In this document: in pieces, positions 2,390 through 31,910 of the stretch
Layout: each line of letters opens with the position of its first letter
How positions within the stretch are numbered: the stretch's first letter is position 1
Notes under the pieces: generated by a model
Databases searched by the model: none
What the model was told of the DNA's origin: nothing
Seen by the model: the letters and a program-made list of their open reading frames with translations, nothing else
IMG/VR virus record: IMGVR_UViG_3300030012_002992
Coordinates: 1 to 33,232 of that record
Strand: one strand, 5' to 3'
Source: a virus
DNA: 33,232 bases
Position numbers and translations under genes: made by a program

Positions 2390-2791
2390 ATGATTAACGA
2401 TATTAAAAAATTAAACCGTTATTACAAGGTTAAAGACTTTGTTAAACGCGCTTCTAACTTTAAAAAAACACAATACTTATATTTTCGTGCTGAGTTTATT
2501 GAAGAAGAGTTAAACGAATTATTTAAAGCAATTGAAAATGAATATCCAGATGAAATAGTTGATGCGCTGATTGATATTATTGTTGTAGCCTTAGGTACAC
2601 TTGATGCATATAACATAAATATAAAAACAGCCTGGAATCGTGTTCATGATGCAAACATGAAAAAAGAAGTTGGCGTTAATGAGTCAAGATCAAATTCTTT
2701 AAACTTACCCGATCTCGTTAAGCCTAAAGATTGGGAAGCCCCTCAACATATAGACAATATAGGTTTATTAGATTTTTTACTTAAGGATTAA
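2390..2791 (+). CDS. MazG-like nucleoside triphosphate pyrophosphohydrolase
   Basis: This 133-aa all-alpha protein has the MazG/HisE-type metal-binding signature: an E-E-x-x-E helix (E39, E40, E43 in EEELNELFKAIENE) followed by E55-x-x-D58 and D62 in DEIVDALIDIIVVALGTLDA. The family hydrolyses (d)NTPs to monophosphates and pyrophosphate. Phage members include dCTP/dUTP pyrophosphatases, but the substrate cannot be read here. It is the first gene of a four-gene cassette ending in a thymidylate synthase-family enzyme and a dCMP deaminase, so supply of dCMP or dUMP is a reasonable inference. The next gene starts two bases after its stop. Confidence 0.75.
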   Translation: MINDIKKLNRYYKVKDFVKRASNFKKTQYLYFRAEFIEEELNELFKAIENEYPDEIVDALIDIIVVALGTLDAYNINIKTAWNRVHDANMKKEVGVNESRSNSLNLPDLVKPKDWEAPQHIDNIGLLDFLLKD

Positions 2792-2793
2792 TT

Positions 2794-3054
2794 ATGCATT
2801 CAGTATTAAAAGAAGCAGCTAAACTACAACAGCTAAAAGAAAAAGATTACAAGTCACAATCTTCTGAAAGCAAACAAGAATATTTTCCTTATGGTGATTT
2901 ATCATATTTGCAAATGTTACATACTAAAATTAAAAGACTTGAATCATTAGCATTTGAAAATGATAAGCCTAACTTTGAATCAAGCTATGATTCAGTTTTA
3001 GATTTAATTAATTACGCTAGCTTTTACGGGGCTTATTTAAAAAATAAAAAATGA
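2794..3054 (+). CDS. Small DUF1599/Nmad1-like protein of nucleotide cassette
   Basis: This 86-aa protein has a charged N-terminus (LQQLKEKDYKSQS), then GDLSYLQMLHTKIKRLESLA and an acidic helical end, SSYDSVLDLINYASFYGAYL. The pattern of a short helix, K-x-x-R-L-x-S-L, and E-S-x-x-D-x-x-x-D-L-I-N-Y resembles small DUF1599 (nucleotide modification associated domain 1) proteins found beside phage thymidylate synthase genes. This is recognition by pattern and could be wrong. Its stop overlaps the next start as ATGA, so it is probably coupled to that enzyme. No catalytic assignment is made. Confidence 0.5.
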   Translation: MHSVLKEAAKLQQLKEKDYKSQSSESKQEYFPYGDLSYLQMLHTKIKRLESLAFENDKPNFESSYDSVLDLINYASFYGAYLKNKK

Positions 3055-3845
3055 ACAGCGATTATATTTATTTTGAATTAGTTGAGCATGTATTACGCAA
3101 TGGCGTAAATCGTAATAACGAAAGAACCGGCGTAGGAACAAAAGCGGTTTTTGGAACAAATATAACTTTTAATTTACAAGACCAATTTCCTTTACTTACT
3201 TATCGTAAAATATTTTATCGAGGCGTGATCGGTGAGCTTGTTTCATTTCTTCGTGGTTATACTAATGTTAAAGACTTTCAAAACGTTGGTTGTAATTACT
3301 GGAATCATTGGGCTGATGAGAACGGCGACCTTGGCCCAATATACGGGGCTCAATGGATTAATTATTCAGGTTTAGGAATAAATCAAATACGTAATGTAAT
3401 CAAAGAAGCTAAACGTAACCCTGAATCACGTAGGCTGTATGTTACAGCCTGGAATCCAGAAGAAAATGATAAAATGTCGCTTTTACCATGCTTTCATGGT
3501 TTTCAATTGTTTATTGATAATAATAATTTAGATTTATTAGTCAATATGCGCTCGTCTGATATAATGCTTGGACTACCTTCCGATTTACTGTTTCATGCAT
3601 TATTAATGTTAGTTTTCGCTAATGAACTTAAAATATCCCCCAGAAAATTAACATTTTCATTAGGCGATGCGCATATCTATAAAAATCATATTAAATATGC
3701 AGAATATGCTAAAGAATTAATGTTTTATAACGGTGCAAATGTATCAATTAATTTAAATGCAAGGCTACATAATATAAGTCCTGATGATTTTGTTATTCAT
3801 AACTATAGGCATTACCCTGCTGAAAAATTAGATGTCAACCTTTAA
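3051..3845 (+). CDS. thyA: Thymidylate synthase-family enzyme with Asn-to-Asp switch (possible dCMP-specific)
   Basis: At 264 aa this matches E. coli ThyA in length and keeps the family landmarks: ERTGVGT, the WADENGDLGPIYGAQW block, SRR in NPESRRLYVTAWN, catalytic Cys147 in LLPCFHGFQLF, RSSD, and GDAHIYKNH (His and Tyr that contact the nucleotide). The Asn that reads the uracil ring (E. coli N177, in LGLPFN) is Asp178 here (LGLPSD), with the same 31-residue spacing from the Cys. Asp at this site is characteristic of T4 dCMP hydroxymethylase (C148/D179), and engineered N-to-D thymidylate synthases act on dCMP. The His after the catalytic Cys (PCHAFF in E. coli) is also shifted (PCFHGF). The product could be a dCMP methylase or hydroxymethylase; activity cannot be settled from sequence. 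Confidence 0.9.
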   Translation: MNSDYIYFELVEHVLRNGVNRNNERTGVGTKAVFGTNITFNLQDQFPLLTYRKIFYRGVIGELVSFLRGYTNVKDFQNVGCNYWNHWADENGDLGPIYGAQWINYSGLGINQIRNVIKEAKRNPESRRLYVTAWNPEENDKMSLLPCFHGFQLFIDNNNLDLLVNMRSSDIMLGLPSDLLFHALLMLVFANELKISPRKLTFSLGDAHIYKNHIKYAEYAKELMFYNGANVSINLNARLHNISPDDFVIHNYRHYPAEKLDVNL

Positions 3846-4290
3846 ATACAATGAAAAGCAAATTGATCAATATATTAATCTTGCAGCTGTATTTGGCTCA
3901 TGGTCAAAAGACCCTTCAAAAAAGGTTGGCGCAGTAGCGATCGGTAATTATGGCCAGGTATTATCACAAGGCTATAATGGTTTTCCGAGGAATTTTAAAG
4001 ACTATCCTTTTTTATACGAATCTAAAACATTAAAAAATAATTATATTATTCATGCTGAAATGAATTGTATTTATCATGCAGCTATAAACAATGTTTCATT
4101 AGAAAATGCTTCTTTGTTTGTACACGGCTTACATGTTTGTCATGAGTGCGCTAAGGGTATTATTCAAACAGGCATTAAAGAAGTCTACAGTTTTTGCTCA
4201 GGCCCTTTTAGTTCAAAATGGCTTCATAGCTTTAATATTACAGATGAATTATTTGAAGAAGCTAATATTAAATATAAAAAAATCAATTAA
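3832..4290 (+). CDS. Deoxycytidylate (dCMP) deaminase
   Basis: This 152-aa zinc-dependent deaminase converts dCMP to dUMP, and some family members also accept 5-substituted dCMP. The zinc and catalytic residues are H74-A-E76 in HAEMN and the C103-x-x-C106 pair in HVCHECAKGI; the usual PC before the first Cys is VC here. The N-terminal block DPSKKVGAVAI and GYNGFPRNFKD is characteristic of dCMP deaminases. The start overlaps the preceding gene by 14 bases. With a thymidylate synthase-like enzyme that may itself use dCMP, it may compete for dCMP or act on the modified product. Confidence 0.9.
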   Translation: MSTFKYNEKQIDQYINLAAVFGSWSKDPSKKVGAVAIGNYGQVLSQGYNGFPRNFKDYPFLYESKTLKNNYIIHAEMNCIYHAAINNVSLENASLFVHGLHVCHECAKGIIQTGIKEVYSFCSGPFSSKWLHSFNITDELFEEANIKYKKIN

Positions 4291-27454: not shown

Positions 27455-27684
27455 GTTTATTACCTATTAGAGAAATACCAAAAATAACTGCTTGGAGTCA
27501 ATCTATAGCATTAATTGATATTAATAATTGGGGCTCGCATAAGTACACAAAAACTATTCTTAATGATGGGACCATAATAATGGAAACCCGTGAACCAGGC
27601 AAAGAGCCTGAGATATTAATTAACCCTTCAAATAAAACATTAGCAGAAATTGCTAATGATTACTATAGACAAAATGGTAGGTAA
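27451..27684 (+). CDS. Hypothetical protein
   Basis: This 77-aa protein is not recognised. It contains I-T-A-W-S-Q-S-I-A-L-I-D followed by Y-T-K-T-I-L-N-D-G-T-I-I-M-E-T-R-E-P and a final helix ending A-N-D-Y-Y-R-Q-N. The W...Y...L-N-D-G-(T/S) arrangement followed by a helix with consecutive aromatics recalls the gene at 28735, so the two may be distant paralogues. It overlaps both neighbours and has no cysteine or membrane span. Confidence 0.6.
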   Translation: MSLLPIREIPKITAWSQSIALIDINNWGSHKYTKTILNDGTIIMETREPGKEPEILINPSNKTLAEIANDYYRQNGR

Positions 27685-28612
27685 AAAAACAAGTTACGCT
27701 AAACCAAGCTGTTCATCTCTCCCTTATATTAAAGGCATTAGCCAATATCAAACACAAAATGAATGGTTAGATGTTGCGATTAATGCTAGCGAGGGCAAAT
27801 TGCCGGAGCATAAGGAGCAGACGCTAACACAATATATGGGCGATTTATTAGAACCCGTATTATGTAATTTCGCTGCTGAACTGCTTGGTTTATCTTTTGT
27901 TAAAACAGATCATGAGGAGCCCGTACACCATCAGTATCTTCCCCTATCGGGCTCCCTTGATGCTAGCGGTGTAGCAGACAACCTAACTTTTAAACAAGGC
28001 GATAATGAAAATATAATTATTCCTGAACAAAAGAAAATTACTTTAGACGGGCCTGGCGTTATTGAATGTAAATGTACACGTAATCCTTTTACGCCTGAAC
28101 TTGAAGAATGGCGGGGCGTTTTACAATCTAAAGGCTTAATGGAATGCACAGGCTGGAATTGGGCTGCTGTAGTTGTATTATGGCAGTCTACGGATTTTCG
28201 TATTTATTTATATGAACGTAAAGAACCATTTAAAAAAGAATTAGAAGAATTAGTATTAGATTGCGATTATCGTATAAAAAATAAAAAATACTATAACCCT
28301 GTTAGCTCAAATGATGCTAATATTAAATACCAAAATATTAATAAAGATATAGTTTCATTAGAGCATGAGGCTGATAATCTATGCAGAACAATTATGAATG
28401 CAAAAGATTCAATAAAGCTAGCTCAAGAAACTATTGATAAAGCAGAAATTAAATTAAAAGAATTAATTCAAGATGCTGAAATTGGTCGCACTAATCAATA
28501 TGAAATTAAATGGCCAATGATTAATTATAAAGCTCAGCCTGAAAAAATAGTTCCAGCTAAGGATGCCAGGCAAGTGCGAGCTAAAACTTTGAGGATAAAA
28601 AAGTATGAGTAA
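27674..28612 (+). CDS. YqaJ-type viral exonuclease
   Basis: A 312-aa nuclease of the lambda exonuclease/YqaJ fold (PF09588), used for recombination and DNA end resection. From the ATG at 27674 the active-site set is E60 (YMGDLLEPVL), D96 (LSGSLDASG) and E131-x-K133 (GVIECKCT), in the usual order. The C-terminal third (about 215-270) is a coiled coil (VSLEHEADNLCRTIMNAKDS). ATG 27656 or TTG 27650 are alternatives with longer overlap of the preceding gene. No beta-type annealing protein is seen, but an SSB-like gene lies downstream. It may degrade host DNA or repair phage ends. Confidence 0.8.
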   Translation: MVGKKTSYAKPSCSSLPYIKGISQYQTQNEWLDVAINASEGKLPEHKEQTLTQYMGDLLEPVLCNFAAELLGLSFVKTDHEEPVHHQYLPLSGSLDASGVADNLTFKQGDNENIIIPEQKKITLDGPGVIECKCTRNPFTPELEEWRGVLQSKGLMECTGWNWAAVVVLWQSTDFRIYLYERKEPFKKELEELVLDCDYRIKNKKYYNPVSSNDANIKYQNINKDIVSLEHEADNLCRTIMNAKDSIKLAQETIDKAEIKLKELIQDAEIGRTNQYEIKWPMINYKAQPEKIVPAKDARQVRAKTLRIKKYE

Positions 28613-28757
28613 TGAAAATAAACAAGCGGTATGGGTCAGTAATGAAACTCATAGACGCTTAAAAAAATATTGCGAGCAACATGGCTTAAAAATAAGTTAT
28701 ATCGTAGAAAAAGTTATTAAAGATAAATTAGAAAATGAAGCTGAAACCAACGCTTGA
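28605..28757 (+). CDS. Ribbon-helix-helix DNA-binding protein (Arc/MetJ type)
   Basis: A 50-aa frame overlaps its neighbours by 8 and 23 bases. The product has the complete ribbon-helix-helix pattern: strand QAVWVS (7-12), helix A NETHRRLKKYCEQHGL, then the short turn and helix B KISYIVEKVIKDKLENE. The G-L-x-x-S-x-x-V-E-x-x-I segment is typical of Arc, CopG and related repressors. It would dimerise and bind inverted or tandem operator sites. It is the only clear DNA-binding regulator I find, and the paired palindromes at 2331 and 27067 are candidate targets. GAGGA lies 9-10 bases before the ATG. Confidence 0.75.
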   Translation: MSNENKQAVWVSNETHRRLKKYCEQHGLKISYIVEKVIKDKLENEAETNA

Positions 28758-28947
28758 AGAGTGGTCAAAAATGATTAATAAAAAGTTTTTTACAGGCTTT
28801 TATGGTCTTAGTTTTTACTCTACGCTATATAACGATGGTAGCGTTGACAAGCATTTAAATGATGGCAGTATTGAACACGTAGATACCCAATTAACGCCAG
28901 AAGAAATACAAAGGCGTTACCAGGAAGATATTGGACAATCATGGTAA
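28735..28947 (+). CDS. Hypothetical protein
   Basis: This 70-aa protein is not recognised. It has E-E-W-S-K-M-I-N-K-K-F-F near the start, then G-L-S-F-Y-S-T-L-Y-N-D-G-S and L-N-D-G-S-I-E-H-V-D, a repeated N-D-G-S turn, and ends in a helix (LTPEEIQRRYQEDIG). The N-D-G plus final-helix layout is shared loosely with the gene at 27451. It overlaps the regulator upstream and the nuclease downstream, so it belongs to the early operon. Confidence 0.6.
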   Translation: MKLKPTLEEWSKMINKKFFTGFYGLSFYSTLYNDGSVDKHLNDGSIEHVDTQLTPEEIQRRYQEDIGQSW

Positions 28948-29360
28948 ATTCCAGGAATAAAGGTGCAGCATTTGAACGCGATATAGTTAATGCATTAAAA
29001 TTATTTTGCAGTAACTACGATGCACAAATTCATATTTCCAGGAATTTTGAACAACAGTTCAAAGAAGGGCAAGCCGATATAAATTTTTTAAATTATGCGA
29101 TTGAATGCAAACGTTACGGCGAAGGTAAAGGCTTGCAAGCTAGCTGGTGGAATCAAGTATGCAATGCGGCCGGCGAAGATCGGATTCCTGTTTTAGTTTT
29201 TAAATACAACCGAGCTGATATTCAAGTTGCTTTACCTTTGTGGGGTATCCTTGAAGACGAGCCTAAAGACAACGAAAAAATATTTATATGTAAATGGCCT
29301 GAATTTATACATATTATTAAAAAAAATAAAATATTTCAGGCTTATGTTGAAACAAGATAA
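28941..29360 (+). CDS. Holliday junction resolvase-like PD-(D/E)XK nuclease
   Basis: This 139-aa protein fits the Hjc-type core: NKGAAFERDIVNAL with E12, then K-E-G-Q-A-D46-I and Y-A-I-E55-C-K57 (the E-x-K pair), followed by a helix with W-W-N-Q-V. R-N-K-G-x-x-F-E-R-x-I is the usual opening of archaeal-type and phage resolvases. It probably resolves branched replication or recombination intermediates before packaging. It differs from the second nuclease at 26525 by keeping the E-x-K pair. Confidence 0.75.
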   Translation: MVNSRNKGAAFERDIVNALKLFCSNYDAQIHISRNFEQQFKEGQADINFLNYAIECKRYGEGKGLQASWWNQVCNAAGEDRIPVLVFKYNRADIQVALPLWGILEDEPKDNEKIFICKWPEFIHIIKKNKIFQAYVETR

Positions 29361-29517
29361 TGAAGAGTTTACGCAATTTTGTTTTGCAGAATATTTTGAA
29401 TACCTTGCGGCTAATAAAGAACAGCCACAAGTTTTAAGTTTCGAAGATTATGTTTCTGATTACAGATACATATTAATTGAAAAATGGCGCACTGGTGCGC
29501 AACCCAAACTACATTAG
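29344..29517 (+). CDS. Small acidic hypothetical protein
   Basis: From ATG 29344 this is 57 aa with an acidic, aromatic helix (DNEEFTQFCFAEYFEYLAAN) and F-E-D-Y-V-S-D-Y-R-Y-I-L. It is not recognised. The frame is open upstream to 29227 but that part lies inside the resolvase gene and looks like a shadow, so I prefer the short form, which overlaps the resolvase end by 17 bases. The Shine-Dalgarno of the next gene lies at its 3' end. Confidence 0.5.
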   Translation: MLKQDNEEFTQFCFAEYFEYLAANKEQPQVLSFEDYVSDYRYILIEKWRTGAQPKLH

Positions 29518-29525
29518 GAGGTAAT

Positions 29526-30083
29526 ATGGACGTTATGGGCATAAATAGTAGCGGTGGTAATCTTAACTTTATTAAGTTTGATCAAGAACATAAAGTATGG
29601 ATTGCTGGCGAAGATTTTGTTGAAGAAGAAGCATTTTTGTTAGACCCTTCAACAATACAAATAGGCTGGGGTAATTACGATGGTAGTTATTCTTGGACTT
29701 GGGACGAAAAACCAGGTGTACGAGCACAGCAACCTACACCCGATTGGAAACGCGCTTTTAGTGTTTGGCTGTATTTTAAAGAAGCCGGCCCTAAATTATG
29801 GAGACGTTTCAGTTGGGGTGAATCACAAGGATTCAACGATATGTGCGGAATGATATGGGACGATATCAAAGCAAATCCTGGTAAGTGTGCTTGCTTTAAA
29901 TTAGTAGGCCATGAAGAAAAAAAATTTAAAATAGGTCAATCACAAATACCTAAATTTGAATTTGTTAAATGGGTCGATAAGCCTGAAGGCTTTGTAGTTA
30001 ACGATGTTGATACTGTAGCCGAACCTGCTAAAGCAGAAGCGGACCCTTTTACTAACGTAACTGAAGACGAATTACCATTTTAA
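29526..30083 (+). CDS. Single-stranded DNA-binding-like protein with SSB tail
   Basis: This 185-aa protein starts at ATG 29526 after AGGAGG (29516-29521), preferred over an in-frame ATG at 29484. The body is rich in Trp, Tyr and Phe in alternating strands (IQIGWGNYDGSYSWTWDEK, KRAFSVWLYFKEAGPKLW), compatible with an OB-like nucleic acid-binding fold. The C-terminus is acidic and ends E-D-E-L-P-F, closely resembling the D-D-D-I-P-F tip with which bacterial SSBs recruit partners. It lies between the resolvase and primase-helicase genes. I infer ssDNA binding. Confidence 0.7.
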   Translation: MDVMGINSSGGNLNFIKFDQEHKVWIAGEDFVEEEAFLLDPSTIQIGWGNYDGSYSWTWDEKPGVRAQQPTPDWKRAFSVWLYFKEAGPKLWRRFSWGESQGFNDMCGMIWDDIKANPGKCACFKLVGHEEKKFKIGQSQIPKFEFVKWVDKPEGFVVNDVDTVAEPAKAEADPFTNVTEDELPF

Positions 30084-30086
30084 AAA

Positions 30087-31910
30087 ATGTCTGAAGTCGA
30101 CTTTATACAGTTGGCTCCTGGCGTTGGTAAGCACTTTTTAGGTGAACCTAGTAAAGTATATTCAAACGAATGGAGATGGGGTACCAACGGAAGCTGGTGC
30201 CTCACTCTTGATACAGGTTTATTTTATAGTTTTGAATTAGACGACGGCGGGGGAGTACTATGGCTAATCGATCATTTTAACGGCGATCGATCATTAGTCT
30301 TAAATCAATTACCAAACACGAAACCAATAGCTAAAGCTAAAACATTTACAAGCATTGAAATGAAAAAGCTAGCTATTGAATCAATAGTATTATTAAGATA
30401 TACCGATCGCTTTGTGGTTATGCGGTTCGGAGAAGGTCATTATATTAAGCAAAAATATGCACCGTTTACAAAAATAAATGATGAATGGCATTTAAAAAGG
30501 CCTGAAGGGCAAATGCCTATATATTACAAAAACGGCGATGGGCCAGTTGTTATTAATGAAGGTGAAAAAGCAACTATAGGCTGCAACCAATTATATGATG
30601 GGCCTGTTGCCACTTGGCACGGCGGTGTTAATAGTTGGAAAAAATGCGATTGGTCTCAAGTATTTAATAAAGAAGTTTTAATATGGCCAGATAATGATGA
30701 GGCTGGCACTAAATGTGCTAATGAGTTATCTAGCTATCTAAAAGAAAACGGTTGTAAGGTTGCGATAGCTAAAATACCTGAAGGCTTTAATGATAAAGAT
30801 GATTTATATGATGCTTACGCAAATAAATATTTTAATAAAGAAACTTTTGCAGATTATATAGAATCTATAAAATTTAAAGCTCCTAAACCATCATTAGTCC
30901 TTAAAAAGGTTTCAGAGCTCATTACGAGCATTCCCGAACCTGAATGGATAATTGATAATGTTATGGAAAAAGACTCCGTTATGGAGATCTATGGAGCCCC
31001 TAAAAGCGGTAAATCATTTATAGCAATCGATATGGCTTTATGCGCGTCATTAGGTATTGATTGGCATGGACATAAAACCGTTAAAACTCCTACTGTTTAT
31101 TTAGCCGGTGAAGGCCAGCGCGGTATTGCAAGAAGAGTTAAAGCATGGGAGCAATACAACAATATTTATTTGGATGAGGCTGAGCTGTTTATATCCGATC
31201 GCGGTATTAGGTTTTTAGACGAAAAAGACCATCAAAATTTAATTGATCATATTTATCATATAGTTGACTTATATGGCGATATAGGCTGTATCTATGTTGA
31301 TACCTTAGCTCGTAACTTTGGTGCTGGCAACGAAAATAGCACTGAAGATATGAATCTATTTATTGAGCGCGTTGATATGCTTAAAAACGAATTTAATGCA
31401 TGCATAAGTTTAATACATCACACAGGCCATAATGCCAGCGGCAGAGCGCGAGGCAGCTCAGTATTACCAGCGGCTGTTGATGCAGAATTTGCAGTTAAAA
31501 GGCAAAAAGATGTATCAGACGAAATGAAAGTAGAGTTTGCACAAACACTAATTAAAGACGGTAAACCTATGGGCAATAAGTTTTTTCAGTTTAAAGAGGT
31601 AGATCTTATTGGCTTTGATCAGGTTACATCAGGTGTATTAATACCGATCGAGGCCAGCGATTACTTTAATCAAGATGAAAGTAAGATTGATGAAACAGCT
31701 TTATTGATCGGCGAAATACAACAAGCTAAAGCTAAAGCAGAAAATACAGACCCAATTAATATTTGGGTTAAGCAAATAGAAGTTATAAATAAAAGTGAAA
31801 TATCTGAGTCAGCTGTTAAACAAAGGCTAAAAAGACTAAGAGAGAGTGATAAAGTTTATTATGAAGAAAGAAAAGGCTATCAGTCTAAAATGTTTGATGA
31901 AATTAAATAG
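30087..31910 (+). CDS. Primase-helicase: TOPRIM plus RepA-type ATPase
   Basis: A 607-aa replicative protein. Residues about 30-65 resemble a reduced primase N-terminal module (GSWCLTLDTGLFYSFELDDG). A TOPRIM domain follows (about 150-235) with V-I-N-E-G-E160 and W-P-D202-N-D204-E-A-G. The ATPase (about 285-500) is of the RepA/AAA_25 type, with Walker A GAPKSGKS (303-310), A-G-E-G-Q-R-G-I, Walker B C-I-Y-V-D-T-L-A-R and L-I-H-H-T-G-H, then G-R-A-R-G-S-S. A winged-helix-like tail (ISESAVKQRLKRLRESDKVYY) could bind DNA. An iteron array directly follows it, as expected for a replication initiator next to its origin. Confidence 0.88.
   Translation: MSEVDFIQLAPGVGKHFLGEPSKVYSNEWRWGTNGSWCLTLDTGLFYSFELDDGGGVLWLIDHFNGDRSLVLNQLPNTKPIAKAKTFTSIEMKKLAIESIVLLRYTDRFVVMRFGEGHYIKQKYAPFTKINDEWHLKRPEGQMPIYYKNGDGPVVINEGEKATIGCNQLYDGPVATWHGGVNSWKKCDWSQVFNKEVLIWPDNDEAGTKCANELSSYLKENGCKVAIAKIPEGFNDKDDLYDAYANKYFNKETFADYIESIKFKAPKPSLVLKKVSELITSIPEPEWIIDNVMEKDSVMEIYGAPKSGKSFIAIDMALCASLGIDWHGHKTVKTPTVYLAGEGQRGIARRVKAWEQYNNIYLDEAELFISDRGIRFLDEKDHQNLIDHIYHIVDLYGDIGCIYVDTLARNFGAGNENSTEDMNLFIERVDMLKNEFNACISLIHHTGHNASGRARGSSVLPAAVDAEFAVKRQKDVSDEMKVEFAQTLIKDGKPMGNKFFQFKEVDLIGFDQVTSGVLIPIEASDYFNQDESKIDETALLIGEIQQAKAKAENTDPINIWVKQIEVINKSEISESAVKQRLKRLRESDKVYYEERKGYQSKMFDEIK

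Follow-up and report, generated by a model that had tools for sequence, protein, structure and literature searches.

We found, in the genome of a marine-type phage, a four-gene block that probably makes a 5-substituted cytosine nucleotide, most likely 5-methyl-dCMP, for the phage DNA; the prediction is drawn from sequence comparison. The genome is an IMG/VR record, which was analysed over its entire 33,232 bases (the window; GC 35.6%) and displays a tailed-phage gene set with terminase, portal, capsid, tail and replication genes. Comparison at the DNA level recovered no close named phage for the window, and the nearest named relatives of its TerL protein come from Roseobacter phages, at 51-53% identity. 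The block lies between TerL and the gene in the gpW position, with all four genes on the plus strand and with overlaps of 4 bases between P4 and the thymidylate synthase (TS) homologue and of 14 bases between the latter and the deaminase:

2390-2791, plus strand: MazG-like nucleotide pyrophosphohydrolase (P0003), matching PF01503 above the cut-off (E=7e-11)
2794-3054, plus strand: P4, an 86-aa protein, a marker of dCMP-modifying loci
3051-3845, plus strand: TS homologue of 264 aa, a predicted dCMP 5-methylase (PF00303, E=5e-75)
3832-4290, plus strand: dCMP-deaminase family protein (P0002; PF00383, E=3.5e-15; also PF14437 and phrog_174)

A preliminary description of this sequence had named the MazG-like enzyme and the adjacent dCMP deaminase, and both identifications hold: acidic motifs (EEELNE, EIVD) can be read in the former, and the latter features the motifs of zinc dCMP deaminases, H74-A-E76 (HAE) and C103-H-E-C106 (CxxC), with a Val directly ahead of the first Cys, where Pro is usual. 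The ORF at 2794-3054 (P4), which was absent from that description, turned out to be the most informative neighbour; its match to PF07659 (DUF1599, 'Nucleotide modification associated domain 1') is weak and below the cut-off (E=0.016).

The TS homologue aligns over its full length with solved TS structures, its C-terminus matching ThyA through the final residue, and its AlphaFold2 model (pLDDT 93.4) has E. coli TS as the top Foldseek match (TM 0.94, 36% identity). The positions central to its predicted specificity are as follows:

3480-3482, plus strand: Leu144 (E. coli L143), an Asp in the hydroxymethylases T4 gp42 and SPO1 gp29
3489-3491, plus strand: Cys147, the catalytic nucleophile, from the alignment
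3492-3494, plus strand: Phe148 at E. coli His147, the second of the two MetaGPA positions tied to cytosine modification (PMC8670742)
3582-3584, plus strand: Asp178 (codon GAT) at E. coli Asn177, the cytosine/uracil switch, from the alignment (PMC8670742, PMC5175136)

Alignment with the TS structures thus bears out the earlier reading that Asp178 stands where E. coli has N177, 31 residues from Cys147 as in E. coli ThyA, and that the His following the catalytic Cys is displaced, Phe148 taking the place of His147 and the His coming at 149 (PCFHGF). The other nucleotide-binding and catalytic residues are kept, as had been noticed; in the E. coli numbering used from here on, these are R21, E58, W80, W83, Y94, R126, R127, L143, C146, R166, S167, D169, H207 and Y209, so that every catalytic or ligand residue checked is conserved apart from positions 177 and 147. 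The fold and the catalytic Cys, Arg and Asp set place the protein in the TS superfamily (PF00303), and it shares with canonical ThyA the folate- and phosphate-binding residues, but it departs from the canonical dUMP enzymes in having Asp for Asn177 and Phe for His147. It likewise differs from the MilA-type CMP hydroxymethylases, since the deoxy-selecting Arg127 and Ser167 are kept rather than being Lys and Ala (PMC5175136). A single-sequence scan with the window TS returned one distant relative only (L002). Asp177, Phe147 and Leu143 are found in all 24 window-type homologues, down to 45% identity, and comparison of these enzymes, with a dN/dS of 0.08-0.30, shows that they are under purifying selection; hence the three residues are not there by chance.

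Both departures fall at informative positions: in PMC8670742, 177 and 147 are reported to best separate the TS proteins of cytosine-modified virome DNA from those of unmodified DNA, with Asp prevailing at 177 among the former. For Asn-to-Asp TS mutants (N177D in E. coli, N229D in L. casei) that yield 5-methyl-dCMP, that paper refers to Liu and Santi 1992 and to Hardy and Nalivaika 1992. These designed mutants have the same scaffold and the same Asp as the window enzyme, whereas the window type also features His147 to Phe, Phe176 to Ser and divergence to ~36% identity. In viral TS sampled by motif, His147 accompanies Asn177 in 111 of 113 enzymes, while position 147 of the sampled Asp177 enzymes is Thr, Leu, Tyr, Pro or His, and Phe in the window type. 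That the window protein is an ordinary dUMP thymidylate synthase tolerating Asp177, which together with the deaminase would take dCMP to dTMP by the textbook route, appears highly improbable. Its TS fold and catalytic residues and a neighbouring deaminase, the normal source of dUMP, would suit such an enzyme, as would the at least 25 other viral enzymes in which Asp177 occurs in a site that is TS-like in other respects, His147 included; however, the window type invariably pairs Asp177 with an altered position 147, the mutants cited in PMC8670742 indicate that this very change turns an ordinary TS into a dCMP methylase, and both the linkage to P4 and the exchange with a dCMP hydroxymethylase described below argue against it. 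The preliminary description had held that Asp-bearing relatives proven to be ordinary thymidylate synthases would count against a dCMP enzyme, and none was encountered.

Of 50,697 phage records, only 42 contain P4; nearly all of these belong to the Xp12 family, and the rest are Serratia and Cronobacter T4-like phages, the Pelagibacter phage Kolga and one Bacteroides phage. In Serratia phage Muldoon it is directly upstream of a dCMP hydroxymethylase with glucosyltransferases beyond, and in Kolga (L454:3983-5637) the gene directly downstream of it encodes a TS that combines Leu143 and His147 with Asp177, after which comes a MazG that is 43% identical to that of the window. Among 78 newly fetched IMG/VR loci with P4, some from the same contigs as the TerL-related set below, 75 have a TS-superfamily gene nearby, and wherever position 177 is readable P4 lies upstream of an enzyme with Asp there (73/73, forming 16 clusters at 80% identity; 39 with Leu143 and 34 with Asp143). 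In the three remaining loci, P4 and MazG neighbour a gene taken by eye for a ribonucleotide reductase; at L525:2947-3655 and L527:701-1409, P4 and MazG are adjacent, the sequence covered contains no TS and the ribonucleotide reductase-like gene comes next. No P4 was found near an Asn177 TS (0/113 loci), and a MazG neighbour is seen in 38/40 Leu143 Asp177 loci versus 4/113 Asn177 TS loci. To search for phages whose cytosine is modified, P4 could serve as a simple marker. Another phage (L083:2751-4392) has a block of P4, an Asp177 TS with Leu143 and His147, and a deaminase of a different subtype.

The closest counterpart of the block as a whole is in the Xp12 family (Bradleyvirinae), for which AXL1 and PaMx74 were used as stand-ins. 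Their operon comprises a pyrophosphohydrolase, an Asp177 TS, a deaminase and a dihydrofolate reductase (DHFR) (PMC9206674), and the same source reports that AXL1 DNA resists most restriction enzymes, as does Xp12 DNA with its cytosine replaced by 5-methylcytosine. The N-terminal half of the PaMx74 pyrophosphohydrolase corresponds to the window MazG (37%, 106 aa), and the C-terminal half of the Xp12-family enzyme to P4 (39%, 89 aa); judged by these alignments, the window MazG and P4 are a split form of the fused Xp12-family enzyme. The two systems agree in having MazG and P4, an Asp177 TS and a deaminase in that order in one operon, with overlapping genes, a residue other than His at 147 and no Asp143, whereas in the Xp12 family MazG and P4 are fused and a DHFR, missing downstream in the window, follows the deaminase. 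The Xp12-family TS also belongs to a separate clade with Asn143, Pro147, Phe83 and no aligned C-terminal tail, and in the tree the Xp12-type and window-type sequences each form a clade of their own (node values 95 and 100, respectively). The quick tree put the window-type clade with TS, but an AU test did not uphold a firm position on the TS side, placement on the hydroxymethylase side not being rejected (p=0.55).

Among 80 related loci gathered by TerL, the cassette recurs at the same place with either of two enzymes in the TS slot. In 23 of these relatives the slot is occupied by a window-type enzyme (45-63% identical; Asp177, Phe147, Leu143, Ser176), and in 28 by a T4-type dCMP hydroxymethylase of ~218 aa, which also matches PF00303 and displays the T4 gp42 signatures NDFICTN (with the Asp three before the Cys), SNYG and RSNDxVYGYKND (with ND as the base-reading site). 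Both types sit between the same P4 and deaminase genes, and TerL can be 84% identical even between phages of opposite types. In the closer loci of either type, P4 is ~72-77% and MazG ~63-68% identical to those of the window, which indicates that the flanks are shared and the enzyme has been exchanged. One TerL relative (L423:3046-3792) has a third type of TS-like protein (RSCDALRHLQND) in the slot, with a more divergent deaminase. The exchange with a dCMP hydroxymethylase, the linkage to P4 and the Xp12-family cassette strongly support a TS-family member acting on dCMP, and we regard dCMP as very likely the substrate of the window enzyme.

The two kinds of loci also differ after the deaminase. 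Where both the deaminase and the gpW gene were seen, window-type loci have a gap of 51-78 bp with no extra gene (20/20). In all 13 hydroxymethylase loci, by contrast, the interval is taken up either by a SAM methyltransferase (0.8 kb) or, over ~3 kb, by a PLP-enzyme-like gene together with unknowns. As these loci are mutually related, a Fisher test on them overstates their independence. The extra genes would suit a product with a hydroxymethyl group to decorate, a group that a methylated product lacks. The two alternative modules, as in L398:4850-5581, L411:4601-7524, L414:4163-7147 and L401:4437-6283, consist of the SAM methyltransferase, or of a phrog_13881 protein, a PLP-dependent (threonine dehydratase-like) protein and an unknown of ~370 aa, and may make new decorated forms of 5-hydroxymethylcytosine (5hmC). 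The predicted structure of a 368-aa protein from these siblings is of low confidence (pLDDT 55).

The shared slot and partners would equally suit a dCMP hydroxymethylase on a TS scaffold, in which water rather than hydride ends the reaction to give 5-hydroxymethyl-dCMP and 5hmC DNA. In T4 gp42, according to PMC6400193, the residue that activates the water is Asp145 (E. coli 143), and its change to Asn (D145N) leaves a dead enzyme. T4 gp42 combines Asp143 with Asp177, the dUMP hydroxymethylase SPO1 gp29 has Asp143 with Asn177, and position 143 is Asn in the Xp12 family and Leu in the window. From these combinations, position 177 appears to read the base and position 143 to set the chemistry, which would place the Leu143 Asp177 window enzyme in the methyl and cytosine corner, as with the 1992 mutants. 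An earlier suggestion of 5-hydroxymethyl-uracil as a product is unlikely, since the enzyme with that activity has Asn177 and Asp143. The window enzyme resembles T4 gp42 in its family, in the Asp at the base-reading position (T4 D179) and, by way of the siblings, in its genomic slot, but it differs in the following: gp42 has Asp143 and Ser94, while the acidic residue three before the Cys (T4 D145) is Leu in all window-type enzymes and neither the Ser/Thr two before the Tyr (GPIYG here) nor the shortened C-terminus is seen. The window enzyme retains Trp83, Leu143 and a C-terminal tail of full length instead (PMC6400193); thus, the active-site residues (Leu143, Trp80, Trp83 and the C-terminal tail) favour methylation over hydroxymethylation.

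Gene content bears on this choice from both sides. TS-type methylation turns methylene-tetrahydrofolate into dihydrofolate, whereas hydroxymethylases leave tetrahydrofolate. A DHFR would therefore help a methylase, and its absence argues for hydroxymethylation: PF00186 has no match in 48 records (the window and 47 others of window-type, sibling and other Leu143 Asp177 phages), while a DHFR lies near the Asn177 phage TS in 63/113 loci. On the other side, none of the 20 window-type cassettes has a hydroxymethyl-decorating gene, and no carbamoyltransferase, a known 5hmC decorator, was found in 43 records, mostly with Asp177 enzymes. The MetaGPA contigs of PMC8670742 resemble the window in linking a TS with Asp177 and an altered 147 to PF01503 and PF00383/PF14437 domains, and differ in that a carbamoyltransferase (5hmC) co-occurs. 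A DNA cytosine-C5 methyltransferase, an alternative source of 5-methylcytosine, was likewise not found in 12 records. The earlier proposal of an enzyme that methylates or hydroxymethylates dCMP is thus strongly supported as regards dCMP; the choice between its two products leans to methyl on the residues and the lack of decorating genes, with DHFR absence pointing the opposite way. Weighing these, we consider the hydroxymethyl product unlikely and predict, with fair confidence, that the TS homologue yields a 5-methyl one.

The role of the deaminase, which may act on dCMP, on 5-substituted dCMP or on both, admits a further explanation, that thymidylate supply is the main job of the block, with dCMP passing through 5-methyl-dCMP to dTMP and ordinary cytosine in the DNA. 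Such a pathway has a precedent in Xp12, going by the title of Kuo 1982, 'A New Thymidylate Biosynthesis' (a reference in PMC11946847), and would agree with the TS gene overlapping or abutting the deaminase gene in window-type loci. It would also agree with the lack of a kinase for modified dCMP; consistent with the preliminary description, which saw no dedicated nucleotide kinase, a search with PF21448 (dNMP kinases of the T4 gp1 type), the sole family searched, found none. However, hydroxymethylase-type siblings keep the same deaminase as the methylase-type ones, so that it is not specific to methylation. Moreover, the Kolga block combines P4, TS and MazG with no adjacent deaminase, and an Asn177 TS would already serve a phage needing dTMP. 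As the main function, then, thymidylate supply seems rather improbable, although by analogy a 5-methyl-dCMP route to dTMP, as had been proposed, is possible in the window phage.

Under the preferred reading of a dCMP methylase serving DNA modification, the MazG/P4 pair would hydrolyse dCTP to dCMP, which the TS homologue would bind through Asp178, forming an adduct at Cys147 (both in the numbering of the window enzyme) and taking a methylene from methylene-tetrahydrofolate; with the hydride-transfer machinery of TS retained, reduction would give 5-methyl-dCMP. The host's own kinases and polymerase would bring this into the phage DNA as 5-methyl-dCTP, shielding it against restriction; that the search with PF21448 gave no kinase for 5-methyl-dCMP counts against this reading. 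The deaminase would sustain the thymine supply by converting dCMP to dUMP and/or 5-methyl-dCMP to dTMP. The replication module of the window (27650-31910) has a RecE-like exonuclease, a PDDEXK nuclease and a Toprim/AAA helicase-primase-like protein; no DNA polymerase was seen in it, so that use of the modified dNTP would fall to the host polymerase.

Asn-to-Asp TS mutants that methylate dCMP have been known since 1992, and the present prediction, if true, would mean that the same change occurs naturally, in marine phages with a TS from another clade than that of the Xp12 family. More tentatively, a TS-scaffold dCMP methylase with a deaminase might feed both 5-methylcytosine and thymine from one folate step, with sibling phages switching between methyl and decorated hydroxymethyl cytosine by exchange of one gene. 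The slot exchange is also a natural experiment on the residues that decide between methyl and hydroxymethyl. Kolga, a SAR11 siphovirus isolate propagated on a host in culture, has a similar block and DNA open to examination, which makes the central claim testable.

Two other viral clades have Leu143 and Asp177 with MazG beside the TS and a helicase-primase (L087, L043, L016 and others, 30 loci; L115, L114, L119 and others, 10 loci), one of them with a ribonucleotide reductase small subunit; these are further candidate natural dCMP methylases. A gene of ~1.7 kb beside these enzymes, considered as a carbamoyltransferase, is instead the helicase-primase. A Bacteroidota-rich clade of TS homologues (L244-L361, with viral L050, L075 and others; 80 loci) has Asp177, Gln143 and mostly Leu147, and 46 of its 80 members adjoin a protein that by eye resembles a DNA adenine methyltransferase.
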